Assembly: GCF_019443085.1 (NCBI RefSeq)
Contig: NZ_JAHZIL010000003.1
Coordinates: forward strand, 1,488,001-1,552,000
From: Marinobacter sp. F4218
GTDB taxonomy: Bacteria; Pseudomonadota; Gammaproteobacteria; Pseudomonadales; Oleiphilaceae
Direction: 5' to 3'
DNA length: 64,000 nt
Shown here in pieces: positions 7,425 to 44,381 of this stretch (the stretch's first letter is position 1; the number at the start of each line of letters is the position of its first letter). The position numbers were made by a program, and so were the translations under genes. A model generated the notes under the pieces. It made no database searches, was not told where the DNA came from, and was given only the letters and a program-made list of their open reading frames with translations.

Positions 7425-7509
7425 AACCCTTCTGTCCTATTCCGTCCGGTGGCCGGCTGTGAAACACTGGCCACCGGATTCGTTCAGTAAAAAGGAGACT
7501 TTACCTCAA

Positions 7510-7953: not shown

Positions 7954-8030
7954 TCGGCCAGCACCCGCGCATCTTGAATTCGGCGGCATTGGGCTCCATT
8001 TGAAGAGGCAGACCGTTTAGGAGAAACCTC

Positions 8031-8468: not shown

Positions 8469-8547
8469 CGTTCACGCTCGTTGGGCAAAGCCGGTTGCAC
8501 CGACTAGACTGAATCCCTATCAGGGACTGACTATCACCGGCAACGCA

Positions 8548-11472: not shown

Positions 11473-11511
11473 GAGCTGCTAGACTTCCAGAATAACGACA
11501 AGGAGCACCCC

Positions 11512-17380: not shown

Positions 17381-17389
17381 AGGGCTGCC

Positions 17390-18187: not shown

Positions 18188-18257
18188 GTTGACCGGATAT
18201 GATCGGGTTGGCCAAGCGTAATCCGACACCGGCATCATATGTCGCGTAACACCCCGA

Positions 18258-19142: not shown

Positions 19143-19154
19143 CGGAGGCGGAGC

Positions 19155-20230: not shown

Positions 20231-20241
20231 ACGGGAGAATC

Positions 20242-23509: not shown

Positions 23510-23528
23510 GTTGTGTCCTGTTTTGTTT

Positions 23529-25508: not shown

Positions 25509-25645
25509 CAGGAATTTGACTCTTTTCGTTGTTGTTATACGTATACGTGATCATGCCTCCGTTAGAGCATGGCACAGCCCTTTCTTTTTAGACAACTGGA
25601 TAATTGTTTGGGCTCTGCTAGCTTTTAAAAAAAAGAGATGTAGTC
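25509..25645. promoter_or_regulatory. Divergent FDH-island promoter region with overlapping palindromes
   Basis: This 137-bp region separates the ferredoxin operon from the DUF3305-to-TusA operon. It contains two overlapping 10-bp palindromes, TATACGTATA (25536-25545) and ACGTATACGT (25539-25548), positioned to control both directions. They are a plausible operator for a metal- or formate-responsive regulator. No regulator gene is encoded nearby. Confidence 0.5.
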
Positions 25646-26224
25646 ATGAGCAGTCGCACAGAGCATTGGAAACGCGAGATACAAGTGGGTGCCGTCGTCC
25701 GCCGTTCCCCTGGAGTGACCCAGTGGGCGCGTGATATCTGGAAGCCAGTGGCCGTCATACCGGGCGCACCGGAGGCGTTCTGGAAAGAGCTGGTTCGCGA
25801 GGGCGAGGTGGTCGATTTTCACGCAGGCACCGTTCCCATGGAACTGTTTCGCGCCGATGTGGAAGGTTACCTTGTGTCCCTTAACATGACCGTTCCCTCC
25901 GTCTGGATCATCATGGATAAAGACCAGACCAGTCGCTCTCCCTCAGGGTGGGTGGTCAGCACCATTACCGCCAGTGCCCACGAGGCGTTGGATGCCCTGG
26001 ACAGTGGCGAAAGCATTGTCGAAGCCGTTCCGATCCCCGAGTCGCTGGCGGCCTGGATCAAAGAGTTTATCGACATGCATTACATCGAGGAGCCGTTCAA
26101 AAAACGCCGTCGCGATGAGGTCCGTGTTGACGCTGTCGAGGAGGGCAAAGGCGATCCACGTATCCGTCAGCAGAGCGACGTCTACCGTGCTCCCTCCCAC
26201 CTCAAAAAACCCAGGGTGCACTGA
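25646..26224 (+). CDS. DUF3305 domain-containing protein
   Basis: A 192-residue soluble protein. Residues about 5-140 match the DUF3305 pattern (QVGAVVRRSPGVTQWARDIWKP). The C-terminus is basic and probably disordered (KKRRRDEVRVD). The family is almost always next to DUF3306 and formate dehydrogenase genes, but no function is established. A GAGATG-type RBS precedes ATG 25646, and its TGA overlaps the DUF3306 ATG by one base. Confidence 0.87.
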   Translation: MSSRTEHWKREIQVGAVVRRSPGVTQWARDIWKPVAVIPGAPEAFWKELVREGEVVDFHAGTVPMELFRADVEGYLVSLNMTVPSVWIIMDKDQTSRSPSGWVVSTITASAHEALDALDSGESIVEAVPIPESLAAWIKEFIDMHYIEEPFKKRRRDEVRVDAVEEGKGDPRIRQQSDVYRAPSHLKKPRVH

Positions 26225-26838
26225 TGAGTGAGTCACGCCTGCAGCGCTGGTCGCGTCAGAAAGCCGAAGCTCGCAAAGAGGCGGAGCTCGCCCCTCCCTC
26301 GCCAGCCGAATCCGAACCATCACCCGAAGCGCAAGAACTCGTCATCAATGAGACCTTGCCCGAGCATGAGATCCTGGAGAAGTACAACCTGCCCGCCCCG
26401 GATACCATCGTGCTGGGCACCGACATTACCGGGTTCATGCGAAAAGAAATTCCCGAATTCCTCCGTCGTAAGGCCCTGCGCGCGCTGTGGAAATCAAACC
26501 CCGTTCTGGCAGTGCTGGACGGACTCAATGACTACGACGAAGATTTCTCGGACGCCGCCACTGCAGGCAACGTCGTGCAGACCCTGTACAAAGTTGGGCA
26601 GGGCTTAATTGATAAAACCGCAAGGGTGGATGAGCAAGTCGAGATCCCGGTTAAGGAACAGGCCAACGCTTCGGAAACGATTTCCTCTGCGGAGGACGCC
26701 GAAGAAATCGTCGACCATTCAGAATCCGAAATGCGTGCAGAACCCCTTACCGCTAGCCGCCACTCTGAACCTGTGGCTCCCGAGCCTGAGCTGGAAACGA
26801 CACCTCGCTATCGTCCCAGGATGCGTTTTGACCATTAG
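26224..26838 (+). CDS. DUF3306 domain-containing protein
   Basis: A 204-residue hydrophilic protein with an N-terminal RLQRWSRQKAEARK segment and a middle block FMRKEIPEFLRRKALRALW (about 70-90) that is the DUF3306 hallmark. The C-terminal third is rich in Glu, Ala and Pro and likely disordered. It is coupled to DUF3305 by an overlapping stop and start. It is probably an FDH maturation partner, inferred from neighbours only. Confidence 0.87.
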   Translation: MSESRLQRWSRQKAEARKEAELAPPSPAESEPSPEAQELVINETLPEHEILEKYNLPAPDTIVLGTDITGFMRKEIPEFLRRKALRALWKSNPVLAVLDGLNDYDEDFSDAATAGNVVQTLYKVGQGLIDKTARVDEQVEIPVKEQANASETISSAEDAEEIVDHSESEMRAEPLTASRHSEPVAPEPELETTPRYRPRMRFDH

Positions 26839-26922
26839 CGGCTGAAGCCGAAGTTGCTCCCGCGCTAAATCGGGTCTATAGAATAGTGATGGAAATTTAA
26901 ACAACAACAAGAGAGATAAAAC

Positions 26923-27534
26923 TTGGCCAACGCTGTAGAAGTTCCATGCCCCCGTTCGATCAACGACGAAGATCGTGCGCGAGCCCAAATGTATCAGTTG
27001 CTGGGCGTCTTGCTGGGGGGGCCACCTTCCAAAGAGCTGCTCACCGGATTGGCATCGCTAAAGGGTGATGACACTCCGCTGGGGGCTGCCTCAAAGAATC
27101 TCGCAGCTCTTGCCGAACGCACTACTCCTTATGACGCCGAACGCGAGTACAACAACCTTTTCGTGGGCGTCGGCCGTGGTGAACTGCTGCCTTACGCCAG
27201 TTACTACCTCACCGGTTTTCTGAATGAGAAGCCCCTCGCGAAATTGCGTAGCGATCTGATGGTCAGGGGCATCAAATCGAGGGATGACGTTAAAGAGCCC
27301 GAAGATCACATCAGCACGCTGTGCGAAATCATGGCGGGCATCATCACGGGCGAGTTCGAGTGCGACAGCGATTTGCCTTCACAGAAAGCCTTTTTTGACG
27401 CCCACCTGGCAAAGTGGGCGGCGTTATTTTTTACCGATTTGGAAGAAGCGCAAAGCGCAGTCTTCTTCGCTCCTGTGGGCTCGTTGGGTCGGGCTTTCAT
27501 GACCGTAGAAGCTGATGCTTTTGCAATTCAGTAA
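26923..27534 (+). CDS. TorD-family chaperone for the FDH catalytic subunit
   Basis: A 203-residue, all-helical TorD/DmsD-like protein starting at TTG 26923 (MANAVEVPCPRS). The pattern YDAEREYNNLFVGVGRGELLPYASYYLTGFL (shown in part here) matches the conserved chaperone core, and EPEDHISTLCEIMAGI is the second core block. Such chaperones bind the Tat signal of a molybdo-enzyme and delay export until the cofactor is inserted. It lies just upstream of the Tat micro-protein and the alpha subunit. Confidence 0.88.
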   Translation: MANAVEVPCPRSINDEDRARAQMYQLLGVLLGGPPSKELLTGLASLKGDDTPLGAASKNLAALAERTTPYDAEREYNNLFVGVGRGELLPYASYYLTGFLNEKPLAKLRSDLMVRGIKSRDDVKEPEDHISTLCEIMAGIITGEFECDSDLPSQKAFFDAHLAKWAALFFTDLEEAQSAVFFAPVGSLGRAFMTVEADAFAIQ

Positions 27535-27575
27535 CCGGGATCTGCCCGATCCCTTAACTCAGGTGGAGGTGTCCG

Positions 27576-27764
27576 ATGGACAACCCCAAACATGAAAACA
27601 GCCGTCGCCGTTTCTTGCAGCTGGCAGCAACCGCAGCACCAGCTGCCGTTGCCATGGCAGTTGCACCGAACGCCGCAGCCGAGGTCGCTAACGACGCCCC
27701 GAAAAGCCGCGGTCTGCGTGACACTGAGCACACAAGGAAATACTTCGAATCGGCTCGCTTTTGA
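27576..27764 (+). CDS. Formate dehydrogenase region Tat-signal micro-protein
   Basis: A 62-residue protein with a Tat motif SRRRFLQLA near residue 9, a hydrophobic Ala-rich stretch and an AEV cleavage-like site. The short remainder ends in HTRKYFESARF. This is the formate_TAT type found next to FDH subunits. Strong RBS GGTGGAGGTG precedes ATG 27576. Its role is unknown; it may accompany the FDH complex to the periplasm. Confidence 0.9.
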   Translation: MDNPKHENSRRRFLQLAATAAPAAVAMAVAPNAAAEVANDAPKSRGLRDTEHTRKYFESARF

Positions 27765-27850
27765 GGAAGCGTGCGTCGTTCAGGATTGCGTGATGCTCCT
27801 GAATGATCACACCTCCGGAAAAACGAGAACAAAAAACAGAGGTAACTGAC

Positions 27851-30736
27851 ATGTTAAGGAAGAAAACCAACGGGGTAGCGAAAGGCTCCCGTGCGGGATC
27901 TTTACTTTCATCCCTCGCCGCAAAAACTCTGGACCGACGTGGGTTTCTGGCGGCCTCCGGTGTCACCGTGGGTGGTCTGGCGGCTCTATCGCTGACGTCC
28001 ACGCGGGTTCGGGCCGAAACGCCGTCGGCGGAAGGCGGGGAAGTCGTTCTCAAGAAATCAGTATGTACGCATTGCTCCGTCGGCTGCACGGTCGAGGCCG
28101 AAGTGCAAAATGGCGTCTGGACCGGCCAGGAGCCGGGATGGGACAGCCCATTCAATCTCGGCGCTCACTGTGCGAAAGGAGCCTCTGTGCGCGAGCATGC
28201 GCACGGCGAACGTCGCCTCAAGACCCCTATGAAAATGGTCGATGGCCAATGGCAGAAGATCTCCTGGGAAACCGCCATCAACGAGATCGGCGACAAGATG
28301 CTGCAGATCCGCGAAGAGAGCGGTCCCGACTCCGTCTACTGGCTCGGCAGCGCCAAGTTCAACAACGAACAGGCGTACCTCTTCCGTAAATTTGCTGCCT
28401 ACTGGGGCACCAACAACGTCGATCACCAGGCCCGGATCTGTCACTCAACCACGGTCGCGGGCGTAGCCAACACCTGGGGCTACGGGGCGATGACGAACTC
28501 GTACAACGACATCCACAAATCCCAGGCGATTTTCCTGATCGGGGGTAACCCCGCCGAAGCGCACCCGGTGTCGTTGCTTCACATTCTGAAAGCCAAGGAA
28601 GAAAACAACGCGCCGCTCATTGTTTGCGATCCGCGTTTCACGCGCACCGCCGCCCATGCCGATGAGTTTGTACGCTTCCGGCCGGGTTCAGACGTGGCTT
28701 TGGTCTGGGGCATTCTCTGGCACATCTTTGAGAACGGCTGGGAAGACAAGGAGTTTCTCCGCACCCGGGTGTGGGGAATGGACGAGATCCGAAACGAGGT
28801 GAAACGCTGGAACCCTGAAGAAGTCGAGCGGGTTACCGGTGCACCGGGAGCCCAGCTTGAGCGCGTTGCCCGTACTCTGGCGAATAACCGCCCGGGCACC
28901 GTCATCTGGTGCATGGGTGGTACCCAGCACACCAACGGAAACAACAACACACGCGCCTACTGCATTCTGCAACTGGCACTGGGCAACATGGGCGTTTCTG
29001 GCGGCGGCACCAACATCTTCCGTGGTCACGATAACGTTCAGGGTGCCACCGATCTGGGCGTCCTGGCCGACACCCTGCCCGGCTATTATGGCCTGGCCGC
29101 CGGCTCCTGGGCTCATTGGGCGCGCGTCTGGGAGGAGGACCTGGACTGGCTGAAAGGTCGGTTTGCCGTGTGGGACAAAAACGGCAAATCCAGAGCCATG
29201 ATGAACGAGAAAGGCATTCCGGTTTCCCGTTGGATCGATGGTGTTCTGGAGGCCAAGGAAAACTTGGAGCAGCCCGACAATACCCGGGCCATGGTTCTGT
29301 GGGGCCACGCGCCCAACTCCCAGACCCGTATGCTCGAAATGAAGGAAGCCATGGAGAAGCTGGACCTGTTGGTCGTCGTGGATCCCTTCCCCACCGTGTC
29401 GGCAGTTTTGCACGATCGCAAAGACGGCGCTTACCTGCTGCCAACGACCACCCAGTTCGAGACCTACGGTTCCGTTACTGCTTCGAACCGCTCGCTCCAG
29501 TGGCGTGAAAAGGTGATTGAGCCACTGTTCGACTCCAAGGTCGACCACGAAATCATGAAGCTGTTCTCGGACAAGTTCGGTTTCACCGATCGTATGTTCC
29601 GCAACATTGCCATTGAGGGCGACGAGCCGTCGATCGAGGACATTACCCGCGAATTCAATCGCGGTATGTGGACCATCGGTTACACCGGTCAATCACCCGA
29701 GCGTCTCAAGAAACACATGCAGTACCAGCACCACTTCGACAAGACCACTCTGCGAGCGAACGGAGGCCCCTGCGATGGTGACGTCTATGGGCTGCCGTGG
29801 CCTTCCTGGGGTACAGCGGAGATGAATCATCCCGGAACACCCAACCTGTACGACATGTCGTTGCCGGTCTCCAAGGGCGGCCTCACCTTCCGGGCCCGGT
29901 TCGGTGTCGAACGCGACGGCGAGAACCTGCTTGCAGAAGGCGTCTACTCCAAGAATTCCGAGATTAAGGACGGCTACCCGGAATTCACCATGCAGATGCT
30001 GATGGATCTGGGCTGGGACGGCGACCTCACGGATGAAGAGCGCGCCAGCATTGAAACAGTTGCCGGTCCCGAGACCAACTGGAAGACCGATCTGTCAGGC
30101 GGTATCCAGCGGGTGGCCATCAAGCACGAGTGCGCACCCTTTGGTAACGCCAAAGCGCGGGCCGTGGTCTGGAACTTCCCGGATCCCGTGCCGATTCACC
30201 GTGAACCGCTTTACACCACGCGCCGGGATCTGGTCAAAGATTACCCTACCTACGAGGACAAGACCTTCTGGCGGGTTCCGACCTTGTACGAGTCCATTCA
30301 GAAGAATGACTTCAGCAAGGAGTTCCCCATCATTCTCACCTCCGGCCGCCTGGTCGAATATGAGGGTGGCGGTGACGAGACACGCTCGAACCCCTGGCTG
30401 GCGGAATTGCAGCAGGAAATGTTCATCGAGGTGAATCCCCGCGATGCGAACAACCTGAACATTCGTGACGGCAACGACGTCTGGGTTTCCGGTCCGGAAG
30501 GCGGACGCATCAAGGTCAAGGCGATGGTGACCGAACGGGTTGGCGAAGGCGTCGCCTTCATGCCGTTCCACTTCGGCGGAGAACTGGAGGGCAAGTCTCT
30601 GAGGGACAAATACCCCGAAGGGGCCGACCCGATTGTCTTGGGTGAATCCACCAATGTTGTTCAAACATACGGGTATGACTCGGTCACGCAGATGCAAGAG
30701 ACCAAGGCCACCCTGTGTTCGATTATGCCGGCATGA
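27851..30736 (+). CDS. fdhA: Formate dehydrogenase catalytic (alpha) subunit, Cys-type
   Basis: A 961-residue bis-MGD enzyme that oxidises formate to CO2. I chose ATG 27851 (MLRKKTNGVAKG) with AGAGGT upstream. A Tat-like motif DRRGFLAASG (28-37) predicts periplasmic location. One 4Fe-4S cluster is bound by Cys72, 75, 79 and 107 (CTHCSVGC and CAKG). The metal ligand lies in ARICHSTT with Cys197 encoded by TGT, so it is not a selenoprotein. Together with the tungstate importer it may carry W. Length matches membrane-bound FDH3-type alpha subunits. Confidence 0.96.
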   Translation: MLRKKTNGVAKGSRAGSLLSSLAAKTLDRRGFLAASGVTVGGLAALSLTSTRVRAETPSAEGGEVVLKKSVCTHCSVGCTVEAEVQNGVWTGQEPGWDSPFNLGAHCAKGASVREHAHGERRLKTPMKMVDGQWQKISWETAINEIGDKMLQIREESGPDSVYWLGSAKFNNEQAYLFRKFAAYWGTNNVDHQARICHSTTVAGVANTWGYGAMTNSYNDIHKSQAIFLIGGNPAEAHPVSLLHILKAKEENNAPLIVCDPRFTRTAAHADEFVRFRPGSDVALVWGILWHIFENGWEDKEFLRTRVWGMDEIRNEVKRWNPEEVERVTGAPGAQLERVARTLANNRPGTVIWCMGGTQHTNGNNNTRAYCILQLALGNMGVSGGGTNIFRGHDNVQGATDLGVLADTLPGYYGLAAGSWAHWARVWEEDLDWLKGRFAVWDKNGKSRAMMNEKGIPVSRWIDGVLEAKENLEQPDNTRAMVLWGHAPNSQTRMLEMKEAMEKLDLLVVVDPFPTVSAVLHDRKDGAYLLPTTTQFETYGSVTASNRSLQWREKVIEPLFDSKVDHEIMKLFSDKFGFTDRMFRNIAIEGDEPSIEDITREFNRGMWTIGYTGQSPERLKKHMQYQHHFDKTTLRANGGPCDGDVYGLPWPSWGTAEMNHPGTPNLYDMSLPVSKGGLTFRARFGVERDGENLLAEGVYSKNSEIKDGYPEFTMQMLMDLGWDGDLTDEERASIETVAGPETNWKTDLSGGIQRVAIKHECAPFGNAKARAVVWNFPDPVPIHREPLYTTRRDLVKDYPTYEDKTFWRVPTLYESIQKNDFSKEFPIILTSGRLVEYEGGGDETRSNPWLAELQQEMFIEVNPRDANNLNIRDGNDVWVSGPEGGRIKVKAMVTERVGEGVAFMPFHFGGELEGKSLRDKYPEGADPIVLGESTNVVQTYGYDSVTQMQETKATLCSIMPA

Positions 30737-30751
30737 TGAGAGGTGTAGATC

Positions 30752-31360
30752 ATGGCACTTGAAGGACAAGCACGCGCAAAATTCCTTTGCGACGCCGAAC
30801 GCTGCATCGAATGCAATGCCTGCGTAACGGCCTGTAAGAATGAGAATGAAGTCCCCTGGGGCATCAACCGCCGACGCGTGGTGACCATCGAAGATGGTAA
30901 GCCTGGCGAGCGCTCGATCTCGGTAGCCTGCATGCACTGTTCTGACGCGCCTTGTATGGCCGTCTGTCCGGTGGACTGCTTCTACCAGACCGAGGACGGC
31001 ATAGTGTTGCACTCCAAGGATCTGTGTATCGGCTGTGGGTATTGCTTCTACGCTTGCCCCTTCGGCGCACCTCAGTTCCCACAGGCGGGCAACTTTGGCA
31101 GCCGGGGCAAGATGGACAAATGCACGTTCTGTGCTGGCGGTCCTGAAGAAGACAACTCGACAGCGGAGTTCTCAAAGTACGGACGCAACCGCATTGCGGA
31201 GGGAAAATTGCCACTTTGTGCGGAAATGTGCTCAACCAAAGCCCTGTTGGCCGGTGATGGCAACGAGGTGGCGGATATCTATCGCCAGCGCGTGGTGAAC
31301 CGTGGTTTTGGTTCCGGCGCCTGGGGATGGGGCACAGCCTACGAGAAGAAGGGTGCATAA
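30752..31360 (+). CDS. fdhB: Formate dehydrogenase beta (iron-sulfur) subunit
   Basis: A 202-residue ferredoxin subunit with four cluster-binding motifs: CIECNACVTACKNE near the N-terminus, CMHCSDAPCMAVCP, CIGCGYCFYACP, and CTFC with a distal CAEMC. It transfers electrons from the alpha subunit to the cytochrome. It starts 15 nt after the alpha stop. It has no transmembrane helix, unlike longer FdnH types, and fits FDH3B. The next gene is separated by a strong hairpin. Confidence 0.95.
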   Translation: MALEGQARAKFLCDAERCIECNACVTACKNENEVPWGINRRRVVTIEDGKPGERSISVACMHCSDAPCMAVCPVDCFYQTEDGIVLHSKDLCIGCGYCFYACPFGAPQFPQAGNFGSRGKMDKCTFCAGGPEEDNSTAEFSKYGRNRIAEGKLPLCAEMCSTKALLAGDGNEVADIYRQRVVNRGFGSGAWGWGTAYEKKGA

Positions 31361-31375
31361 ACCGGCCTGAGTGTT

Positions 31376-31396
31376 CCGGGGCCCGTCGGGCCCCGG
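31376..31396 (+). terminator. Perfect 9-bp intercistronic hairpin between fdhB and fdhC
   Basis: CCGGGGCCC and GGGCCCCGG are separated by 3 nt. No T-run follows, so this is more likely an RNA-processing or attenuation element that sets the beta to gamma ratio than a full terminator. Confidence 0.55.
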
Positions 31397-31446
31397 TATT
31401 CAGAAAGGCAACGAATGCTTCTTTTCGATTCCGCTGGAGTGCTCTC

Positions 31447-32619
31447 ATGAAATCAAAACTATTTAGTGCCGCCGTCCTTGCGCTGGCGACACTGCTGTTT
31501 AATCCTGCCTGGGCGCAAGATGGTTCGACCGTTGATCGAACTGCCACGGGGGGAGCTCAAACCCTCGAAGACATCATGCGCCGTCAGGAACAGTTGGAGA
31601 TCGATGAGTCCTTTCGATCTGAAAACCTCGGTAATCCCGAAAATGCGGCGCCGGCCAGTGGCCAACTGGGCACGCTGGGAGGGCGCTCTGATGCCGATGT
31701 CTGGCGCTCTATCCGCTACAACAAGATTGATCCCACCGTTCAGTCACCCGGACCGGCCAATGGCGTAATGATTCAGGACGAAGGCATGCCCTGGTACAAG
31801 CTGCGCGAGGGACCGGTGATCACCTACGGCGGCGGTGCAATCCTTGGCTTCGTGGCATTGCTGGTGGTGTTTTACTTCGTTCGCGGCAAAATCATGATTG
31901 ATGGCGGTCCTGCCGGCACCACGATCGAGCGATTCAAGGCCGTAGAACGATTTGGCCATTGGTTGCTGGCCGGCTCGTTTATCGTTTTGGGTATAACCGG
32001 GCTGGTCACGTTGATGGGGCGCAGTTTTCTGATCCCGGTGATCGGGATCGACGCCTTTGCGCCGATCGCTGCCGGCTCCAAGTGGCTTCACAACAATGTT
32101 TCGTGGGCCTTCATGCTGGGGCTGGTAATGACGTTCTGCATGTGGGTGGCGCACAACATCCCAAACAAGCTGGACTGGCAATGGCTTAAAGCGGGCGGCG
32201 GCATCTTTACCAAGAGCCACCCTTCAGCCAGGAAGTTCAACGCAGGTCAGAAAATAATTTTCTGGACCGTGATGGTGCTGGGCTTTTCGGTCTCTCTGTC
32301 CGGCCTGTCCCTGCTGTTCCCGTTTCAATTGCCGATGTTTGCCGATACCTTTGGGGTTATCAACAGCGTCCTGGGCACCAGTTTCCCGACCGACCTGGCA
32401 CCCCACGAAGAAATGCAATACGCCAACATTTGGCATTCGATTGTGGCCTTCGTGATGATGCTGGCCATCATTGCCCACATCTACATCGGCTCGGTCGGTA
32501 TGGAAGGGGCATTCGATGCCATGGGCAACGGTCATGTTGACGTAGAGTGGGCGCGCCAGCACCACGATCTCTGGGTGGCTGAGGTCGAGGCCAAAGAAGG
32601 CAAAGGAGAGTCATCATGA
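31447..32619 (+). CDS. fdhC: Formate dehydrogenase gamma (cytochrome b556) subunit
   Basis: A 390-residue membrane protein. I use ATG 31447 (MKSKLFSAAVLALATLL) because a signal peptide begins there. Residues about 25-115 form a hydrophilic periplasmic domain, and then at least five hydrophobic helices follow. The haem-binding His candidates include RFGHWLLAG and KWLHNNVSW, plus NIWHSIVAF and IAHIYIG. It passes electrons to quinone. The last codons overlap the start of a 41-codon ORF (ATGA). Confidence 0.93.
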   Translation: MKSKLFSAAVLALATLLFNPAWAQDGSTVDRTATGGAQTLEDIMRRQEQLEIDESFRSENLGNPENAAPASGQLGTLGGRSDADVWRSIRYNKIDPTVQSPGPANGVMIQDEGMPWYKLREGPVITYGGGAILGFVALLVVFYFVRGKIMIDGGPAGTTIERFKAVERFGHWLLAGSFIVLGITGLVTLMGRSFLIPVIGIDAFAPIAAGSKWLHNNVSWAFMLGLVMTFCMWVAHNIPNKLDWQWLKAGGGIFTKSHPSARKFNAGQKIIFWTVMVLGFSVSLSGLSLLFPFQLPMFADTFGVINSVLGTSFPTDLAPHEEMQYANIWHSIVAFVMMLAIIAHIYIGSVGMEGAFDAMGNGHVDVEWARQHHDLWVAEVEAKEGKGESS

Positions 32620-35184: not shown

Positions 35185-37293
35185 ATGCGCATATTGAAAG
35201 TCCGCCAGCAACTCTGGATCTCAGTCCTCGTTTGGCTGTTAATTCCCGTGGCGGCAAACGCAGCATCCAGTGATGACACACTCTGGGATACCCCTCTCGA
35301 GGAACTGGGTCAGATCCGGGTGGTTTCGATCGCATCCGGGACCGCAACTCCGCTGGACAAAGCTGCAGCCATTACCTCGGTCATTAGCGCCGACGATATA
35401 GCTGCAATTGGGGCAACGGACCTGGATCAGGTTTTGGAGACCGTTCCCGGTCTTCATGTTAACCATTCTGACCAGGGCTTCACGCCCAAGTATATTTTCC
35501 GCGGCATTACCTCCAGCTTCAATCCCCAAGCTCTGCTGTTGATCAACGGTGTTCCTGTCACCTCAATGATGTTCGGTAATCGAGGTAATGCATGGAGCGG
35601 CATGCCGGTTAAGGCCATCAAGCGGATAGAGGTAATTCGCGGCCCCGGATCAGCCCTCTACGGTGCGGATGCCTACGCCGGTGTCATCAACATCATCACC
35701 AAGAGCGCGCAGGATATAGATGGTGTGGTGGCCGGCGCGCGTACAGGAAGCTTCGACACCCACGCTGCGTGGATTGAGGGCTCCACCGCATGGAATGGCA
35801 CCGATATCAGTCTGGTGCTCGAACAGCAAAGCACCGATGGCTGGCGCAAAACTATCGATCGTGATGCCCAAACCAACTTCGACGAAGCATTCGGTACGTC
35901 TGCCTCCCTGGCTCCTGGACCGGTAAATATGGCCGCAGACCATTTCGACGCTCGAATTGATTTCAGCGGTGATCGCTGGCAGTTGAGGGCCGGCTTGCAA
36001 GATCGAAGGAATCTTGCCACGGGTCCTGGCCTGGCACAGGCACTCGACCCTGAAGGGCGTTACGAGTCCCAGCGGATCAACCTGGATTACAGCTATCATT
36101 GGCTGGAAATAATCGATGGATTGGATATTGAGTCGCGAATCAGCTACTACAACCTTACCCAAGAACCTGAAAACGACATCGCTCTGTACCCGCCCGGGGC
36201 TTTTGGTGGTGCGTTTCCTGATGGGTTTCTTGGTAGCCCGGGGTACAAAGAGCGGCAAGCACGGCTCGATCTGAGCTCTATCTACAGTCGCTTTGACAAC
36301 CACCGCATTCTGTCGGGCGTTGGCGCCTTTTGGGCAGATTTATACGACGTCAGCGAGCGTAAAAACTTCAATGCCGACTTCAGCCCGAAGGGGCAAGTGG
36401 AAGACGTTTCCGACGATCCGGATCAGGTCTGGATGCCGGAAGAAGATAGAAAGAATTACTACATGTTCGTACAGGATGAATGGCAATTTGCCCAAAACTG
36501 GCAACTGGTAAGCGGGCTTCGCTACGACTATTACGCCGACTTTGGGGACACGGTTAACCCGCGAGCAGCATTGGTCTGGGCCACCACAAACAATCTGACT
36601 ACCAAGTTTCTTTATGGCCGTGCGTTCCGAGCGCCCTCCTTGAATGAACTCTATGTTGACAACAACCCGGTCACGGCGGGTAATGATGAACTTGACCCGG
36701 AAACGATTGACACTCTGGAACTGGCTCTTTCCTACCAGGCCAGTTCACGCCTCTTTTACGGATTTAATGTTTTTTACTACGAAATTGATGACCTGATAAC
36801 TGCGGAGCCCACGTCGGGACCAGTTTCCAGCCAGTATCAAAATTCAGGGAAGCGAAAAGGTCATGGCGGAGAACTGGAGGTGACGTATCAGGCGCTCGAC
36901 AATCTCAATCTGACAGCAAACTACGCTTACCAATCCGCCGAGGATGATGAAAATAAGGAATCAGTCGGGCAGGCGCCCAATCATCAGGTCTATGCCCGCG
37001 TTGAATGGCAGGTTGCGCAGACGTGGGCCCTGAACACTCAAGCCAACTGGGTTGGGGAACAAAAGCGGGCAGCTACCGACTCAAGGGAGCCGGTAGCGGA
37101 CTACACGACGGTTGACTTTACTGCCCGCACCAACGGCCTGTGGCGTGGGTTTGATATTGCAGTTTCGGTCAGAAACGCATTCAATGCCGACGTTCGCGAT
37201 CCTAGCCCCTATTCGGACCCGAGACCGGCGATTCCCGGTGACTTCCCCATGCCGGGGAGATCTGCCTACGTCGAAGCGCAATACCAGTTCTAG
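35185..37293 (+). CDS. TonB-dependent outer-membrane receptor
   Basis: A 702-residue receptor with signal peptide ending in VAANAASS (about residue 28), a plug domain (about 45-160, with IEVIRGPGSALYGADA) and a beta-barrel. It ends in the C-terminal aromatic residue motif VEAQYQF. It imports a large or scarce ligand such as a siderophore, cobalamin or a fatty compound; nothing specific to one ligand is visible. It converges on the citrate-synthase-like operon, and the stop codons overlap (CTAG). A YfiR signalling operon lies nearby, which is a common partnership for such receptors. Confidence 0.93.
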   Translation: MRILKVRQQLWISVLVWLLIPVAANAASSDDTLWDTPLEELGQIRVVSIASGTATPLDKAAAITSVISADDIAAIGATDLDQVLETVPGLHVNHSDQGFTPKYIFRGITSSFNPQALLLINGVPVTSMMFGNRGNAWSGMPVKAIKRIEVIRGPGSALYGADAYAGVINIITKSAQDIDGVVAGARTGSFDTHAAWIEGSTAWNGTDISLVLEQQSTDGWRKTIDRDAQTNFDEAFGTSASLAPGPVNMAADHFDARIDFSGDRWQLRAGLQDRRNLATGPGLAQALDPEGRYESQRINLDYSYHWLEIIDGLDIESRISYYNLTQEPENDIALYPPGAFGGAFPDGFLGSPGYKERQARLDLSSIYSRFDNHRILSGVGAFWADLYDVSERKNFNADFSPKGQVEDVSDDPDQVWMPEEDRKNYYMFVQDEWQFAQNWQLVSGLRYDYYADFGDTVNPRAALVWATTNNLTTKFLYGRAFRAPSLNELYVDNNPVTAGNDELDPETIDTLELALSYQASSRLFYGFNVFYYEIDDLITAEPTSGPVSSQYQNSGKRKGHGGELEVTYQALDNLNLTANYAYQSAEDDENKESVGQAPNHQVYARVEWQVAQTWALNTQANWVGEQKRAATDSREPVADYTTVDFTARTNGLWRGFDIAVSVRNAFNADVRDPSPYSDPRPAIPGDFPMPGRSAYVEAQYQF

Positions 37294-38087
37294 GCACTCC
37301 AATTCCGCTTGGCGGGCCCTTCATAAACGATGTTACTGCATCGCACAGGAAAGAAACTTCCCTCAGGCCTATCTCGCGCATCTTGATAGCATGGTGCCAA
37401 GCCCGTGACAAAAGCCGGACTCCCGAAAATCTGGTACTCCTGACAACTCAGGCCGATGTCAGCGGCGAGGCCCGCATGCACCGCCGCAACGTTCATTGAG
37501 TAGCCATACTTTTCATATAGATAGCTGTGCACATTAAGTGCGATCTGCAAGTAGCGGCCGCCATCCAATTCAAACTCCCTGGCTTTGTCCAACATGAATG
37601 GGATTCGCTCGTCGGTCCTGGACAGCGGACGACCATAACCATAGATAGTCCGACCCGCCGACTTCTCGTTTTCAACGAACTCGCCGAGATCACCGCCAGC
37701 GTCAAGATGCTTACCGGCTCGATAGAAAAAATCGAGCGCCCGCACTTCAGGACGGCGACCATATATCGACGCTTCCGAAATGCTCAGTCCGGCCATTAAC
37801 GACAGTGATGCTGTTGCGCGAACGGTCCCTGCCAATGCCGTTACGTGGTTAGGCCATATCGAAGCGTCCGGATAACTGGTGGAAACCCAGAATGAACTCA
37901 GCAATTTCGCAACATTTTCACCCGGATCGCGCCCTAAAATGGCGTATAGATATAGATGAATCCAGTCGTAATCGCCGAGCTCCTTATGCAAATCCTTGCC
38001 ATGCACAATAACCCGGTCGGAAAGGTAGGCTTTGCCCTTGCGGGTTACCCAACGTTTCTCGGTATCCAAAAGCCGTTTGTGACTCAT
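37290..38087 (-). CDS. Citrate-synthase-superfamily half-size protein B (catalytic residues replaced)
   Basis: A 265-residue protein with the citrate synthase/citryl-CoA lyase pattern. By-eye matching puts YGRR (Tyr109) where the His-Gly-Gly is expected, GYGRPLSRTDERIP (150-163) where GFGH...DPR is expected (Arg153 for His), and NVAAVHAGL (199-207) where NVDFYSG is expected (Ala201 for Asp). If correct, all three catalytic positions are changed. Its start overlaps the stop of protein A by 4 nt, so a heteromer is likely. The substrate is unknown. Confidence 0.7.
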   Translation of the reverse strand: MSHKRLLDTEKRWVTRKGKAYLSDRVIVHGKDLHKELGDYDWIHLYLYAILGRDPGENVAKLLSSFWVSTSYPDASIWPNHVTALAGTVRATASLSLMAGLSISEASIYGRRPEVRALDFFYRAGKHLDAGGDLGEFVENEKSAGRTIYGYGRPLSRTDERIPFMLDKAREFELDGGRYLQIALNVHSYLYEKYGYSMNVAAVHAGLAADIGLSCQEYQIFGSPAFVTGLAPCYQDARDRPEGSFFPVRCSNIVYEGPAKRNWSA

Positions 38088-38911
38088 TTTCGGGTCGCCT
38101 CCGGAGAATCCGTGTTGGAGCCGCTCTCATCAAGCTCGATCGCGGGGCCGTAGTAAGGGAACTTTTTCCAGCCCATCTGTTTCTGCTCCAGGGCGTGTGC
38201 TGCCGCCCCCGGCAGCCGGAGCATCAGGTACAACATGCTGCCCTGATCCGGATCCATACCGAGATCCACCAGCGCGGCTGCCGCAAGCCCGCTCATTGCC
38301 AGAGGGTAGCCGACGTGCTGCTCCAGGGCCTGCCGATTGGCTTTCAGCCAGGCGAGTGCACCGTTGGCTGGCGCTAATCCGACGAGCAGGTCCAGCGATT
38401 GGAGAATGGGCGTGGGAGTTACGTCGCCATTCGGATCGAAGCCGGGTGCATGTTCCATGGGCAGCCAGATGTCTGCCCGTTCGTCGTCACTAGGGTTCAG
38501 TAGCCGGGCGCACCATCGATCAAAATCAAAACGGCATTCTTGCCATAACCCGATACACACCGAGAGTTCCTGTGAACCACCGTACTGGCCGGCGCCAACT
38601 GCAAGTGCCGCCATCAAGGCGGAGCTGTGATTGGTCCCAGCCACTCCTGCATTCATTGCCGCCCGGACGCTGGCCTCCCGGGGCCCCGGGTTCGCGATAA
38701 CCAAGGCGAGCTTCTCGAGTAACTCCGGCTCTCCCGTGCCCGGTCGCTCGCCCTTGAACATAAGCAAGAGGTACTCGAACCAACCGGCCTTCCGGACGAC
38801 TTCGCCGTAGACATCGTACCCACGGCAGTAGCAGGCCCTTGCCGCAAAAGGGTTTTCAGCTTCCGGCTCTTCCAGCCAGATGTTGGAGTGGTACTGATAC
38901 TCTGTAGCCAT
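38084..38911 (-). CDS. Citrate-synthase-superfamily half-size protein A (citryl-CoA lyase-like)
   Basis: A 275-residue protein whose second half (LAAAALVDLGMDPDQGSMLYL, LRLPGAAAHALEQ) is typical of citryl-CoA lyase-like proteins. By-eye matching gives Tyr110 in GAGQYGGSQE for the canonical His, PGFDP (156-160) instead of PGFGHP, and Ser207 in AMSGLAAA in place of the Asp of NVDGA. It lies 13 nt after the ThDP enzyme and overlaps protein B. The pair plus a ThDP enzyme implies a shared pathway not known to me. Confidence 0.72.
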   Translation of the reverse strand: MATEYQYHSNIWLEEPEAENPFAARACYCRGYDVYGEVVRKAGWFEYLLLMFKGERPGTGEPELLEKLALVIANPGPREASVRAAMNAGVAGTNHSSALMAALAVGAGQYGGSQELSVCIGLWQECRFDFDRWCARLLNPSDDERADIWLPMEHAPGFDPNGDVTPTPILQSLDLLVGLAPANGALAWLKANRQALEQHVGYPLAMSGLAAAALVDLGMDPDQGSMLYLMLRLPGAAAHALEQKQMGWKKFPYYGPAIELDESGSNTDSPEATRK

Positions 38912-38924
38912 TGGGTTGTCCTGT

Positions 38925-40649
38925 TTATTCAGTTCCGGTGAGTACCTTCATTCTCGCGCCCATGGGCGGCACCTCCTCGGCATCAATCAGCACGTCGAGC
39001 AGGCAAGGGCCAGGACGCGCAAAAATGGCCCCGAGATCGAGCGCATAGAGCTCTTCCATGCTATTGATTCTATACGATTTAACGCCTAATGCTTCAGCTA
39101 GCTTTGCATAATTCACACGGGGCAGAGTATTGGCGATCAGTTCTGCGCCGCCGAGGGCCTGGCCATGGCGAACCATTCCCAATGAGGCATCGTTAAGCAC
39201 CACCATCAGGAGGTTCTGATTTTCCTGTGCCGCGGTCGTCAGCTCCTGCCCGGACATCAGGTAGCTGCCATCACCGGTGACGCACAACACCGGAGCACCC
39301 TTCGCGGCCATGGCGACGCCAACCGATGCCCCGATGGCCCACCCCATCGGCGCAAATCCAATGCCGATGTGGAACAGATTCTTTTCCGGAGCCAGTGCCT
39401 CGGGCCGTCGCACGTTCCAGTGGTGTATTCCCCACAGGAAACTGTTGCCGCTATCAAACAGGGCGCGGGTCGTTTCCGGGCAGGCCCGGCTGAAATACGT
39501 CATCAGTGCCTGCGGTTTGACTGGCCCGGAACTGGCGTAACACCCCTCGCGAAATCGCTCGTCAATGATCGCTGCCAGCCCATCGCTGGTGGTTAAGCGT
39601 GCCGAACTCGCCGCGCTGGCGTCGTGTCCCAGCGCGTCCAGAAGCCGATCAAAAATCAATCGGGGTTCGCCAAGAATGGCGAGGCGCGCCATGGTGGCTC
39701 GTGTCAGATGGCCGGGATTTCTGGAGATATGGATCAATCGTCCCGACAGGATGCCGTCCGGATCCCAACCTGCCGTCGACACCTCGTCCAGCGCCGCACC
39801 CACCACAATGATCCTGTCGGCATTTTCAGGTTTCAGGGCGTCCGACGCACTGCGATGTCCGGCAAAGCCGAAGACACCCCGGTACAGGGGGTGAAAACTG
39901 TCAATCACACCCTTTGCCCGCGGGGTCGTCACCAGCTGCCAGCCTTTGATTTCCGCAAGCTTTGTCAGCTGAGATATCGCGGAGATGGCACCCTCCCCCA
40001 GGACGATCGTCGCCCGGCGTATGCCCTCAAGATGACCGATCAGGCTTTGCATGGTTTCAGGCGCTGGCAGCACTTCGTTCGCCAAAAAGGCATTCAGGGA
40101 AGTGTAAGCCGCTTCATCTGAAACACAGTGGCGCATGACGTCCAGAGGAATGGATAGATGCACCGGGCCCGGCTGATGGCCCATGGCATGGCCTATGGCG
40201 TGAAGCAGTTTCGGAACTAGCTGTTCCGGGTGCGACACCAGCGTGTTGTAGCGGGTGCAACTGGAGAACATATCAATGGTGTTGACGCTGGTGCAGGAGG
40301 ATTCCTGCAGGGCACCCTGGCCGAAACGGTTCAGCGAGGTCTGAGCAGATATGACCAGCATTGGCGTGTTATCGGCGTAGGCGGTGGCCACACCGGTGAG
40401 AAGATTGGTTGCGCCCGGACCCGCCGTGGCACAACACACTCCGAGTCGACCGGATTCCCGGGCGTAACCGTCAGCCATGAAGGCGGCGCCGGTTTCATGG
40501 CGCGCGGTTACAATGCGGATTCCACCGCGACGCTCACTTCGGGCGAGGGCATTGTAAAAAGGCTCGATGCTGCCACCCGGCACCCCGAAAACGTACTCAA
40601 CACCCAGACGTTCCAGGTAACGCAGAATTAGATCACCACACTCAAGCAT
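38925..40649 (-). CDS. Acetolactate-synthase-like ThDP-dependent enzyme
   Basis: A 574-residue ThDP enzyme with three domains: N-terminal pyrimidine domain (1-170, catalytic Glu52 in ARHETGAAF), a central domain (about 190-330) and a C-terminal domain (380-540) with the cofactor motif TGDGSYLMSG near residue 459 and Asn-Asp about 27 residues later. Glu52 argues against glyoxylate carboligase, which lacks it. It is the first gene of a three-gene operon with two citrate-synthase-like proteins. The substrate is unknown. Confidence 0.85.
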   Translation of the reverse strand: MLECGDLILRYLERLGVEYVFGVPGGSIEPFYNALARSERRGGIRIVTARHETGAAFMADGYARESGRLGVCCATAGPGATNLLTGVATAYADNTPMLVISAQTSLNRFGQGALQESSCTSVNTIDMFSSCTRYNTLVSHPEQLVPKLLHAIGHAMGHQPGPVHLSIPLDVMRHCVSDEAAYTSLNAFLANEVLPAPETMQSLIGHLEGIRRATIVLGEGAISAISQLTKLAEIKGWQLVTTPRAKGVIDSFHPLYRGVFGFAGHRSASDALKPENADRIIVVGAALDEVSTAGWDPDGILSGRLIHISRNPGHLTRATMARLAILGEPRLIFDRLLDALGHDASAASSARLTTSDGLAAIIDERFREGCYASSGPVKPQALMTYFSRACPETTRALFDSGNSFLWGIHHWNVRRPEALAPEKNLFHIGIGFAPMGWAIGASVGVAMAAKGAPVLCVTGDGSYLMSGQELTTAAQENQNLLMVVLNDASLGMVRHGQALGGAELIANTLPRVNYAKLAEALGVKSYRINSMEELYALDLGAIFARPGPCLLDVLIDAEEVPPMGARMKVLTGTE

Positions 40650-40703: not shown

Positions 40704-42407
40704 TTACTGATCCAGGGGAACTGGCTTCGCTATCCCGTATCCCTGGGCGTAATCGAGCCCGAGCTGGCGCAGGCATTCTTTTACCTCGTCCGTCTCGACA
40801 AACTCGGCAATGGTTTTCAAGCCGGCCGCGTGTCCAATCCGGTTGCAGGCATCAACGATGCCCATGTCGATCGGGTCCGCGGTCATGTTGCGAATGAAGC
40901 CGCCATCCACTTTCAGGTAATCAATGGGTAGGGCTTTGAGGTAGGAGAAGGAACTCATGCCCGAACCAAAATCGTCCAGGGCGAATTGGAATCCGTCGTG
41001 GCGAGCCCGCTCAATGAAGCCGATGGTGTCGTTCAGATTCGCAATCGCTGACGTTTCGGTGATCTCAAAACACACGCGATTTGGCAGAATTGAATACTCC
41101 TCGACCTTGTTGCGGATGAAACTGAAAAGCTCGCCATCGCTTAACGATCCGCCAGACAGGTTAATGAAGAAGGTGCCAGTCGGTTCGCGACCCAAGCCGG
41201 TGCGGTCGAGATAGCCGAACGCCAGTTCGATGACTCGTCGATCGATTCTTGGCATCAAGCCAAAGCGCTCAGCGGCCGGAATGAACGCTCCGGGCGGAAC
41301 AACCTCGTTGCCCTGTCGCAAGCGGACAAGGAATTCGGTACGGAATCCATCGTTACTCGCTTCCTGCAACGAGATCATTTCCTGGTGACACAGGAAGAAA
41401 TCGTCGGTCTGCAAAGCGCCCTGCAGCCGACTGGTCCATTGCATATCCCGCTGGCGCTGCTGCATGTCCTTGTCGCTGGATTCGTAGACCTGGACGTTGT
41501 TTCGCCCCCGATCCTTGGCCGCGTAGCAGGCCAGATCTGCGTGACTGAGCAATTCGCTTGCCGTCTTGTAACGACTGCCGATGATAACCATGCCCACGCT
41601 CAAGGAGACCGCAAACGGCTTACCCTCCCAGACAAACCGGTATTCCCGGACTTCCTCGCACAGGGACTCGGCAACCTTGCGAGCATCGATGGCGTCACAA
41701 CCGCGAAGCAGTACCCCGAACTCATCCCCCCCCAGGCGTGCCAGGGTATCGTTCGCACGCAAATTCTGGCCAAGCAGTTTCGCTAACTGTTTCAACAACT
41801 CATCGCCGGCCCTGTGGCCACAGGTATCATTGATGATCTTGAACTGATCAAGGTCCAGGTACAGCAGGACGCAGTCGCGGGCAGATTTCCGGGAATCATG
41901 GAGAGCCTCGTCCAGCTGGCGCTCGAATTCACGGCGATTAACCAGATCTGTAAGGCTGTCATGGTAGGCCATATGCTGGAGTGTCGATTCGGCCTCCTTC
42001 TTGGCAAGGCGGACGGTCACTTCCCGCATTTCGCGATGGATCGCCGGTATTAACCGGGCAAGATTGTTCTTCATTATGTAATCTTGCGCACCGGCCTTCA
42101 TGGCCTTCACCGCAACGTCTTCACCGATAAGGCCAGAAACGATGATCACCGGCAGGTCGGCGGCAAACTGACGTGCCAGCTCAAGCACACGAAATGACGT
42201 AAACCCCGGCAGACTGTGGTCTGTAATCACAAGGTCCCATTCCGACGTCGTGAGCGCAGCCTCCATCGCGCTCTCCGTGTCCACCATCTGGTAATCCGGC
42301 TCAATCCCACCCTTCTTCAGAGTTCGCAGAAGGAGGAAGGCATCATCCTCCGAATCCTCGACCAGCAACACTCGCAGGCGATCATTGAATTCACTCACCA
42401 TCGCCAC
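40704..42407 (-). CDS. Receiver-GGDEF-EAL c-di-GMP signalling protein
   Basis: A 567-residue protein with a receiver domain (8-130, Asp in VITDHSLPG), a GGDEF domain with LGGDEFGV (about 225) and an EAL domain (about 310-560). The EAL motif reads EFLVRL instead of EALVR, and DDFGSG near residue 480 and KVDGGFI are intact, so phosphodiesterase activity is possible but not certain. ATG at 42401 (MVSEF) may be the true start. It overlaps the upstream receiver gene by about 17 nt. Confidence 0.88.
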   Translation of the reverse strand: MAMVSEFNDRLRVLLVEDSEDDAFLLLRTLKKGGIEPDYQMVDTESAMEAALTTSEWDLVITDHSLPGFTSFRVLELARQFAADLPVIIVSGLIGEDVAVKAMKAGAQDYIMKNNLARLIPAIHREMREVTVRLAKKEAESTLQHMAYHDSLTDLVNRREFERQLDEALHDSRKSARDCVLLYLDLDQFKIINDTCGHRAGDELLKQLAKLLGQNLRANDTLARLGGDEFGVLLRGCDAIDARKVAESLCEEVREYRFVWEGKPFAVSLSVGMVIIGSRYKTASELLSHADLACYAAKDRGRNNVQVYESSDKDMQQRQRDMQWTSRLQGALQTDDFFLCHQEMISLQEASNDGFRTEFLVRLRQGNEVVPPGAFIPAAERFGLMPRIDRRVIELAFGYLDRTGLGREPTGTFFINLSGGSLSDGELFSFIRNKVEEYSILPNRVCFEITETSAIANLNDTIGFIERARHDGFQFALDDFGSGMSSFSYLKALPIDYLKVDGGFIRNMTADPIDMGIVDACNRIGHAAGLKTIAEFVETDEVKECLRQLGLDYAQGYGIAKPVPLDQ

Positions 42408-42873
42408 CTTTTTGGAACGATCGGGTTACTCCCATCACGGGAACTCTGTTAACGGTTAACCAGTATCGAGCCAGCAAACTCATCTGTTCGCTGAACTTAC
42501 TGTAGTCGATCTGCTTTGTTACGAAGCTGTTGGCCCCTAACCGGTAGGCTTCGCGAAGTTCCTGGGGCTCATCCGACGAGGTGACCATGACCACCGGAAT
42601 CCAGTCGGTCTTGGGCGAGGACCGAATTCGACGTAGCACTTCCAGGCCACTCACCTTGGGCAGTTTGAAGTCGAGCAATACAACGCCTATCGATTCGACT
42701 TGCTCGGAGCGCTCACGGGTTTCGGTTCCGAAAAGGAAATCTAGCGCTTCCTGTCCGTCTTCGAGCATGATTATGGGGTTGTATCTACTCGCATTCCTGA
42801 GCGCGCGCATCGTGAGAACCTGATCATCCGGGTTGTCCTCCACGACCAGAATCGAATAGTCATCCATACCCAT
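42391..42873 (-). CDS. Single-domain response regulator
   Basis: A 160-residue receiver-only protein: acidic pocket in VVEDNPDD, phospho-acceptor Asp in VVLLDFKLPKVSG, Thr/Ser in VMVTSSDEP and Lys in FVTKQID. The spacing is that of the Rcp1-like receivers used with phytochrome-like or CHASE-type kinases. It has a GGAG RBS before ATG 42873. It lies between the histidine kinase and the receiver-GGDEF-EAL gene and is likely a phosphorelay intermediate. Confidence 0.9.
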   Translation of the reverse strand: MGMDDYSILVVEDNPDDQVLTMRALRNASRYNPIIMLEDGQEALDFLFGTETRERSEQVESIGVVLLDFKLPKVSGLEVLRRIRSSPKTDWIPVVMVTSSDEPQELREAYRLGANSFVTKQIDYSKFSEQMSLLARYWLTVNRVPVMGVTRSFQKGGDGE

Positions 42874-42923: not shown

Positions 42924-44381
42924 TTACTTTTGTATTGACGAAGGGAACCTTACATAGAAGCAGGCGCCCTTGTCGACTGAGGAGTCAGCGTAAATTTCAC
43001 CGAAGTGTCGCCGCACAACCCGGTCAACCGTGGCCAGCCCCAGCCCCGTCCCTACGAACTCCGAGGGGGTGTGCAAGCGATTAAACGCGACAAACAGCTT
43101 GTCCACGTATTTCATGTCGAACCCGACACCATTGTCCCGAATTGCAACGGTAATACTGTCAGAAGCTTCACAAGCCGTCACAGCTATGCGGCGCTCGCCG
43201 TTCTTGGACGTGTACTTCCAGGCATTCTCGAGCAGATTCTGAAAAGCAACGCGGATCATTCTACCATCGCCCACTACCCGAATACCCGGTTGTATCCGGA
43301 CATACGTCGGGAGGGGGTCAGTGGTTTCCCTCAGCTCTTCCACAATTTCCTCAAGCATGGCGCTGAGATCGAGCTGTTTGATCTCCATCGCCTGACGGCT
43401 GACCCGGGAGAGTACCAGAAGCCCGTCAATCAGCCCCCCCATTCTTACGGTGGCCGTTCGTATCCTGGACAGGTAATCCCGTCCAGTCTCGTTTAGCTGG
43501 TCCCCACAGTCCTCTTCGAGGGCCTGACCGAAACCCTCAATCGCCCGCAGCGGCTGCCGAAGGTCATGGGAGACCGAAAAACTGAAGGCTTCCAGTTCCC
43601 TGTTGGCAAGACTCAGCTCCGAGGTGCGATCAGCCACGGTCCGCTCCAGTTCGTCACGACTCTGAAGTATCTTCAGGTTCTGCTGCTGGACGGTTCCAAT
43701 CATCTCGTTGAAGGCACTGCCCAGCCGTCCGAGTTCGTCTTTTCCATAGACCGGCACCCGGATGGAATAATCGTGGTCCCGGGCAATCCGCTCGGCGGCA
43801 TCCGAGAGCTGAAAGATCGGCTCAGATACCAGTCGCTGCAAACGCAACGCGACCCAGGCCAAAATCATCTGGATCACAATCCCGATGCTGAAAGTCACCA
43901 GGATGAAAGCCCTGATATGCTCACGCAACACCTCCAGCCGGGACATCAGATAGAATTGACCGACGATGTCACCGTCGAGCATTACCGGCTCCAGAAGACG
44001 ATAATAGTCGCCAACAAAACCAACCTCTGGCGGAACGGAAAGGGCCGGGCAGCTGGCATCATCCGACTCGTCCAATGCGCTCACCACTCGCCCCGCAACG
44101 TTATACACGCACACCTGTTCGATGGTTCCGATCTGGCGCAGGCTCGAAATTATGGTGCTGAGTTGCTGATCATCCTCGAACAGAAGCGCAGCCGCGGACT
44201 GCTCCGCCAGAATGTCCGCGATGACGTGCAGTTCCGACTCGAGCTGCTCCTGATAGTTCTCGTTTTCAACCACCACAAGACTGGTACAAACGAGCAGGAT
44301 ACCCAGCGTACTGATCGACAGCGTGAGCAAGAGCAGTTTGGTTTTAAGTGGCCAGTACTGCCAGCGCCAGCGGTCCATCAT
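42924..44381 (-). CDS. CHASE8-type sensor histidine kinase
   Basis: A 485-residue kinase. Transmembrane helix 1 is near residues 15-35; a CHASE8-like periplasmic domain (about 40-155) contains AALLFEDDQQLSTIISSL, similar to the YfiN sensor domain; helix 2 is near 160-185, then HAMP, HisKA (SVSHDLRQPLRAIEGF) and HATPase (DNGVGFD, GTGLGLATV). It overlaps the YfiR-like gene by 4 nt. A CHASE8 domain next to a YfiR homologue predicts control by periplasmic YfiR. Confidence 0.9.
   Translation of the reverse strand: MMDRWRWQYWPLKTKLLLLTLSISTLGILLVCTSLVVVENENYQEQLESELHVIADILAEQSAAALLFEDDQQLSTIISSLRQIGTIEQVCVYNVAGRVVSALDESDDASCPALSVPPEVGFVGDYYRLLEPVMLDGDIVGQFYLMSRLEVLREHIRAFILVTFSIGIVIQMILAWVALRLQRLVSEPIFQLSDAAERIARDHDYSIRVPVYGKDELGRLGSAFNEMIGTVQQQNLKILQSRDELERTVADRTSELSLANRELEAFSFSVSHDLRQPLRAIEGFGQALEEDCGDQLNETGRDYLSRIRTATVRMGGLIDGLLVLSRVSRQAMEIKQLDLSAMLEEIVEELRETTDPLPTYVRIQPGIRVVGDGRMIRVAFQNLLENAWKYTSKNGERRIAVTACEASDSITVAIRDNGVGFDMKYVDKLFVAFNRLHTPSEFVGTGLGLATVDRVVRRHFGEIYADSSVDKGACFYVRFPSSIQK

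Follow-up and report, generated by a model that had tools for sequence, protein, structure and literature searches.

What can a thiamine diphosphate (ThDP) dependent enzyme be doing in one gene cluster with two citrate-synthase-like proteins that lack the catalytic residues of that family? The question is raised by a locus of Marinobacter sp. F4218, located in a stretch of 64,000 nucleotides (contig NZ_JAHZIL010000003.1, positions 1,488,001 to 1,552,000) that is called here the window and whose own numbering is used throughout. Its minus strand encodes T, an acetolactate-synthase-like ThDP-dependent enzyme (38925..40649, 574 amino acids), followed by A (38084..38911, 275 amino acids) and B (37290..38087, 265 amino acids), both of the citryl-coenzyme A (CoA) lyase fold and without its catalytic triad. 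In the list of open reading frames of the window, T and A are spaced by 13 bp and the A and B genes share 4 bp, confirming the original prediction of a ThDP enzyme followed by two proteins of about 270 residues with overlapping genes. The analysis described here gives good support to a conserved and common, although unnamed, cassette that joins this ThDP/citrate-synthase-fold core to an outer-membrane receptor and a sensor kinase. With a probability of about one half, T-A-B makes a secreted small molecule that is sensed through the cell's own TonB receptor and a periplasmic protein, feeding a kinase and cyclic di-GMP (c-di-GMP) output.

Relatives of the locus were collected by scanning genome contigs with an alignment of B, and the best 80 of 234 confirmed stretches were used. 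All three TPP domains of Pfam are present in T, and Glu52, the GDG motif and Asn486 are kept in 74/74 sequences, namely the 73 of 76 T proteins that passed the length filters plus the window copy. T carries therefore the three TPP domains, the catalytic Glu and the GDG...N motif of the ThDP decarboxylase/carboligase superfamily, and the intact Glu52 and GDG reported earlier hold throughout. Among solved structures, the best matches of T are BbmA (8x3x, 327 bits), CsmA (8x3z, 271 bits) and acetolactate synthase I (225 bits). T shares domains, catalytic Glu and GDG with the acetolactate-synthase-type enzymes, of which BbmA and CsmA are the nearest solved, but it differs from acetolactate synthase itself, scoring 304.4 bits against an NCBIfam cut-off of 538.35 bits, and is not assigned to the biosynthetic enzyme. 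Work on BbmA and CsmA may already cover part of the T-A-B chemistry.

A and B are harder to place by sequence. PF00285 of Pfam matches A weakly (E 1.5e-4, 21.4 bits, cut-off 27) and gives no match to B. The NCBIfam citryl-CoA lyase models reach both proteins weakly and far under their cut-offs (best E 4e-12 for A and 8e-11 for B); citryl-CoA lyase is the best sequence-profile match of both, and no Pfam, NCBIfam or PADLOC model exceeds its cut-off with either protein. Models predicted with AlphaFold2 (mean predicted local distance difference test score 88.1 for A and 86.4 for B) had citryl-CoA lyase modules as their best structural matches, and on these models both proteins have the citryl-CoA lyase fold. 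For B, the comparison with the Hydrogenobacter thermophilus citryl-CoA lyase (6hxp) gave Z 21.8 and a root-mean-square deviation (rmsd) of 2.3 over 229 residues; for A, the modules gave Z 16.0-18.7 and rmsd 3.9-7.4 among the first 23 matches listed. This lyase, with 268 amino acids, and the modules of ATP citrate lyase have the same fold and length as A and B, which had been described as half-size and are in fact of normal citryl-CoA lyase module size. The two proteins differ from citryl-CoA lyase in that they lack its His/His/Asp, occur as a pair and are encoded beside a ThDP enzyme, a receptor and sensors. By hhalign, A and B are homologues of one another (probability 96.8, E 3e-10), and they co-occur in 79 of the 80 loci, the sole exception being cut by a contig start. 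Since they are homologous, co-occurring and encoded by overlapping genes in the window, they fit a heteromer, and probably form one.

The residues expected at the active site were counted in 65 of 79 A proteins and 60 of 80 B proteins, selected by length filters, together with the window copies. In A, the first His (position 110) and the Asp (position 207) of the triad are absent from 66/66 sequences; the former site is occupied by Tyr, Leu, Ser, Asn, Phe, Cys or Ala and the latter by Ser or Thr in 57 of the 66, and the loop of the second His is shortened. The alignments of this loop differ, as HMMER pairs the FDP of A with the FDP of 6hxp while MAFFT pairs PGF with PGF and leaves the next residues gapped, and neither places a His on the catalytic His. 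In B, position 109 is Tyr (57/61) or Phe, position 153 is Arg in all 61, and position 201 is Ala, Gly, Thr or Ser, with His at 109 and Asp at 201 in none. Four control lyases, two annotated on plasmids and two found as weak genome matches, retain HGG, GFGH and NIDG, and alignment with them left the triad of A and B unrestored. Neither protein has the catalytic His, His and Asp of citryl-CoA lyase or citrate synthase: the residues named in the original prediction (Tyr110, PGFDP and Ser207 of A; Tyr109, Arg153 and Ala201 of B) are present, and the loss extends to the relatives. Both proteins have, moreover, strict residues of their own: H154 of A in 66/66, R153, D159 and R161 of B in 61/61, and C233 and C250 of B in 60/61. 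H154 of A might be a displaced catalytic His. Because the site of T is invariant and these other residues of A and B are strict, T appears to be kept active, and A and B under constraint without the triad.

Some other identities were considered for the trio. An ordinary citrate synthase or lyase identity of A and B was ruled out by the residues and the family cut-offs, and the two PF00285 matches of the same genome that exceed the cut-off sit on another contig. Anti-phage defence was ruled out, PADLOC giving no match for A, B or T. A DNA-level search of E. coli found no match to the trio, and only three plasmid records matched, at 24-26 percent identity to A and annotated as citryl-CoA lyase. 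At L139 (3079-5111), the gene of an annotated citryl-CoA lyase whose triad is intact is immediately followed by that of a CaiB-type CoA-transferase, a neighbourhood that does not resemble T-A-B; L029 is similar by eye.

The genes surrounding the trio, missed by the original prediction, suggest what the core may serve. A TonB-dependent outer-membrane receptor (35185..37293, plus strand) is convergent with B and overlaps it by 4 bp. Upstream of T, all on the minus strand, are a YfiR/HmsC-like periplasmic protein (PF13689; 44378..44896), a sensor histidine kinase with a CHASE8 periplasmic domain and HAMP (42924..44381), a single-domain response regulator (42391..42873) and a response regulator with GGDEF and EAL domains, and hence of c-di-GMP type (40704..42407), T-A-B being the last genes of the series. 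The spacing between these upstream genes is at most 54 bp, and because of this tight arrangement the run from YfiR to B is read as a putative single transcription unit. A scan for promoters and terminators was uninformative, the sites being no more frequent than in shuffled sequences.

Linkage of the trio is maintained in the related loci. All 80 loci have B, 79 have A, 76 have T and 74 have a TonB receptor. Wherever A or T is missing (T in four loci), a contig start cuts the locus; the three genes were not seen to come apart in the 80. The receptor lies at most 1.5 kb from B in 71/80 loci. From the six loci without it, three end at most 1.2 kb from B and one (L067) is a 4-kb contig, which leaves L087 and L104. 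The records carry the names of Marinobacter (17 loci), Hahella, Ketobacter, Roseateles, Massilia, Herbaspirillum, Chitinimonas, Gallionella, Sideroxydans, Geobacter, Methylococcaceae and others, and in most loci outside Marinobacter an ABC_sub_bind protein takes the place of YfiR. In a sample of 369 genomes spread evenly over the class, 44 matched the B profile, as did 10 in a sample of 398 genomes from the phylum. Of the 44 class matches, that of G412 is a lyase-like protein accompanied by neither T nor B, and two more are fragments or broken. Twenty of the 44, mostly divergent ones, were inspected: TonB was seen in 17 and T was recognised in 13, including the fragments of a broken copy at L138, where TonB, B and T are all fragmented (6900-12400, G091). 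The seven loci without T were four close to a contig end, L119, L127 and the lyase-like L137. Outside the class, T-A-B was present in 8/8 loci beside sensors, four of them with TonB, a substrate-binding protein (SBP) and a kinase.

The same association holds within the genus. Among 37 Marinobacter genomes, A and T (E < 1e-100), YfiR and a close TonB homologue were found in the same 9, and the other 28 had none of them, apart from one weak A match (E 2.8e-5) and weaker TonB paralogues. B adjoins A or T in the eight congeners inspected. Because the flanking genes vary between some congeners, the cassette seems to be gained or lost as a unit. Pairwise distances of receptor and T were correlated (r 0.90 for the 48 of 80 loci with all four genes within length limits, 0.84 for the 32 outside Marinobacter). 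Several variants of the arrangement were observed. In L025 and L033 (Marinobacter salarius R9SW1, CP007152.1), A, the kinase and TonB are each in pieces while T and B are open, by decay or sequencing error. T-A-B occurs twice in tandem at L107 (7314-14555), a second T is present at L062, L093 and L123, and CheB adjoins the locus in L144. Finally, L141 (9094-15786, G042) contains a related TonB receptor beside a kinase and a protein resembling SBPs (31 bits), and T and A have no match in that genome; this receptor set is a possible listener.

Chance clustering of such genes was ruled out by forty control stretches of 20 kb, taken at arbitrary places of 20 genomes with an A/B locus and searched with the same queries, and set against the 54 loci of at least 18 kb. 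TonB was found in 53/54 loci and 2/40 controls, a kinase or GGDEF/EAL protein in 50/54 and 11/40, and an SBP or YfiR in 47/54 and 0/40. TonB together with kinase or GGDEF occurred in 50/54 loci against 1/40 controls (Fisher p about 1e-20; this and the other p-values serve as a guide only, as the species are not independent), and all three kinds together in 47/54 against 0/40. A further 27 loci, 19 from the class and 8 from outside it, with L137 excluded for lacking T or B, gave TonB in 21, kinase or GGDEF in 23, SBP or YfiR in 20, TonB with kinase or GGDEF in 20 and all three in 20.

In the window as a whole, Rfam at its gathering score gave no matches. A run of genes of molybdenum/formate type was seen by eye in the translations at 15982-32619, which we take to be a molybdate/tungstate-type ABC transporter followed by molybdenum-cofactor and formate dehydrogenase genes.

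Known systems resemble parts of the cassette. In the window, the YfiR-like protein exceeds the cut-off of PF13689, and the kinase exceeds that of CHASE8 and matches DgcN/YfiN under the cut-off at residues 13-262, so that a YfiR-like protein is combined with a membrane partner having a YfiN-like periplasmic domain, as in YfiBNR. In that system, YfiR is described to keep a membrane diguanylate cyclase repressed and to be itself sequestered at the outer membrane (PMC3375315). By analogy, YfiBNR offers a mechanism by which the periplasmic protein could control the kinase, and the TonB receptor may take the part of an outer-membrane partner such as the lipoprotein YfiB. The YfiR-like protein, CHASE8 kinase and TonB receptor are also common to the NCBIfam TOL_0243/TOL_0244 families; however, YfiR, kinase and receptor all score under those cut-offs and the models name no T-A-B partner. 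In alpha-hydroxyketone signalling, the gene for the small-molecule synthase, CqsA or LqsA, lies beside those of a sensor kinase (CqsS, LqsS) and a regulator in Vibrio and Legionella, the synthases being pyridoxal phosphate (PLP) enzymes and the kinases having six transmembrane helices (PMC3376566). The cassette follows the same logic of a synthase beside a kinase, but has a ThDP enzyme with A and B, a TonB receptor and a periplasmic protein; none of its 8 proteins matches a PLP-enzyme family, which sets it apart from the CqsA/LqsA type.

A sequence of events can be proposed on these grounds. T would decarboxylate a 2-oxo acid and join the resulting unit to a second substrate, giving a product of alpha-hydroxyketone or alpha-hydroxyacid type. 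The A/B pair would bind and position a CoA thioester or carboxylate partner, or would carry out a condensation or cleavage independent of the triad, perhaps through the invariant RP..DER motif of B or through the cysteines that B keeps almost without exception. In some lineages the product might be tailored: a short-chain dehydrogenase/reductase (SDR) match was found at 20/80 loci, a P450 at 5/80 against 0/40 controls, an asparagine-synthase-type protein at L126 and a carbamoyltransferase at L024, and a weakly FkbH-like protein, a MaoC-SDR fusion, a methyltransferase and an AMP-ligase at single loci among L150-L152. The product would then leave the cell, its own TonB receptor would bind it or take it up, and the YfiR-like or ABC_sub_bind-type periplasmic protein would relay this state to the histidine kinase or GGDEF/EAL protein. 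Overall, the cell would make a signal of its own, or a metabolite akin to one, and read it at its envelope. The original prediction of a heteromeric citrate-synthase-like complex tied to a ThDP enzyme is thus partly supported, by the pairing of A and B and the linkage of the genes, and the likely role moves from a metabolic pathway to a sensed small molecule once the receptor, the periplasmic protein and the kinase/c-di-GMP genes conserved around the trio are taken into account.

Several observations weigh against this proposal. No dedicated exporter gene was recognised, and TonB receptors more often import metal complexes and nutrients. The SDR enrichment is weak (14/54 against 3/40, p 0.03; 5/27, p 0.25), and the correlation of receptor and T distances may reflect the common descent of the hosts alone. 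At L087 and L104, the 8.5-10 kb that follow B carry no TonB gene. L119 and L127 lack T within 20 kb, and their A and B are accompanied by a receptor and a sensor. In L132 and L133, T-A-B lies beside hybrid PAS/GAF kinases without a TonB receptor. The receptor is also absent from L150-L153, outside the class, where the neighbour in L150 is a fusion of Ser/Thr kinase, AAA, GAF and histidine kinase with a LuxR-type regulator, those of L151-L153 being similar-looking by eye.

The trios of L132, L133 and L150-L153, beside kinases without a TonB receptor, speak for a scheme in which A and B would regulate T by binding CoA or a carboxylate, with no catalysis of their own; the trio would make or consume an intracellular metabolite and couple the metabolic state to the kinase. 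The loss of the triad in both paralogues points the same way, as does the human ATP citrate lyase, whose citrate-synthase homology domain is argued to have an allosteric role (PMC10115795). Such a scheme is improbable, since it leaves unaccounted for the TonB receptor and periplasmic protein of most loci, and the strict residues of A and B suggest working sites. The receptor itself, present at 74/80 loci, would be explained if T-A-B made a small hydroxycarboxylate-type metallophore, with TonB taking up the metal complex and the sensor reporting metal or metallophore supply. Citrate-like hydroxyacids chelate iron, and the NCBIfam matches of the receptor, all under cut-off, include heme, siderophore and B12 receptor families. 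This explanation is unlikely, though worth retaining: no siderophore synthetase is present at the locus, and the output genes code for c-di-GMP and kinase proteins, not for a sigma/anti-sigma pair. A simple Fur-box consensus scanned over three regions of the window, upstream of YfiR, TonB and T, gave nothing above shuffled sequence: the best matches were 11, 11 and 10 of 19, values reached in 167, 188 and 96 of 300 shuffles, respectively. The regions upstream of five further Marinobacter receptors scored 10-13, the 13 being reached by one (L045), without a control.

Catabolism would reverse the direction, the TonB receptor importing a compound that the sensor detects and that T and A/B cleave. 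A receptor, periplasmic protein and sensor do stand beside enzyme folds of degradative type, and both superfamilies include C-C lyases. Nevertheless, no recurring inner-membrane transporter or CoA ligase was found among the clusters of unlabelled open reading frames up to 9 kb from B, the output is c-di-GMP or kinase signalling, and the FkbH-like, MaoC-SDR, methyltransferase, AMP-ligase and P450 genes of some loci look biosynthetic; this direction is about as improbable as the regulatory scheme.

The production of a sensed small molecule by T-A-B could be extended to a widespread and undescribed cell-to-cell signalling system of Proteobacteria, with the ThDP enzyme and the heteromeric triad-less A/B pair as synthase and the dedicated TonB receptor, periplasmic relay and kinase/c-di-GMP proteins as reception; this extension is offered tentatively, the odds leaning against it. 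The gene combination appeared in no title or abstract found among open-licence PubMed Central papers, a collection that leaves most subscription literature outside. If the signalling reading is true, it would add a new type of synthase and an outer-membrane route of reception to bacterial communication, and if the system serves a metallophore or catabolism, the citrate synthase fold would still be put to a new use. Common as the cassette is, its A and B lie outside the curated Pfam, NCBIfam and PADLOC models, and with these genes the question can be put directly to the test in bacteria that grow in culture, Marinobacter or Hahella for example.

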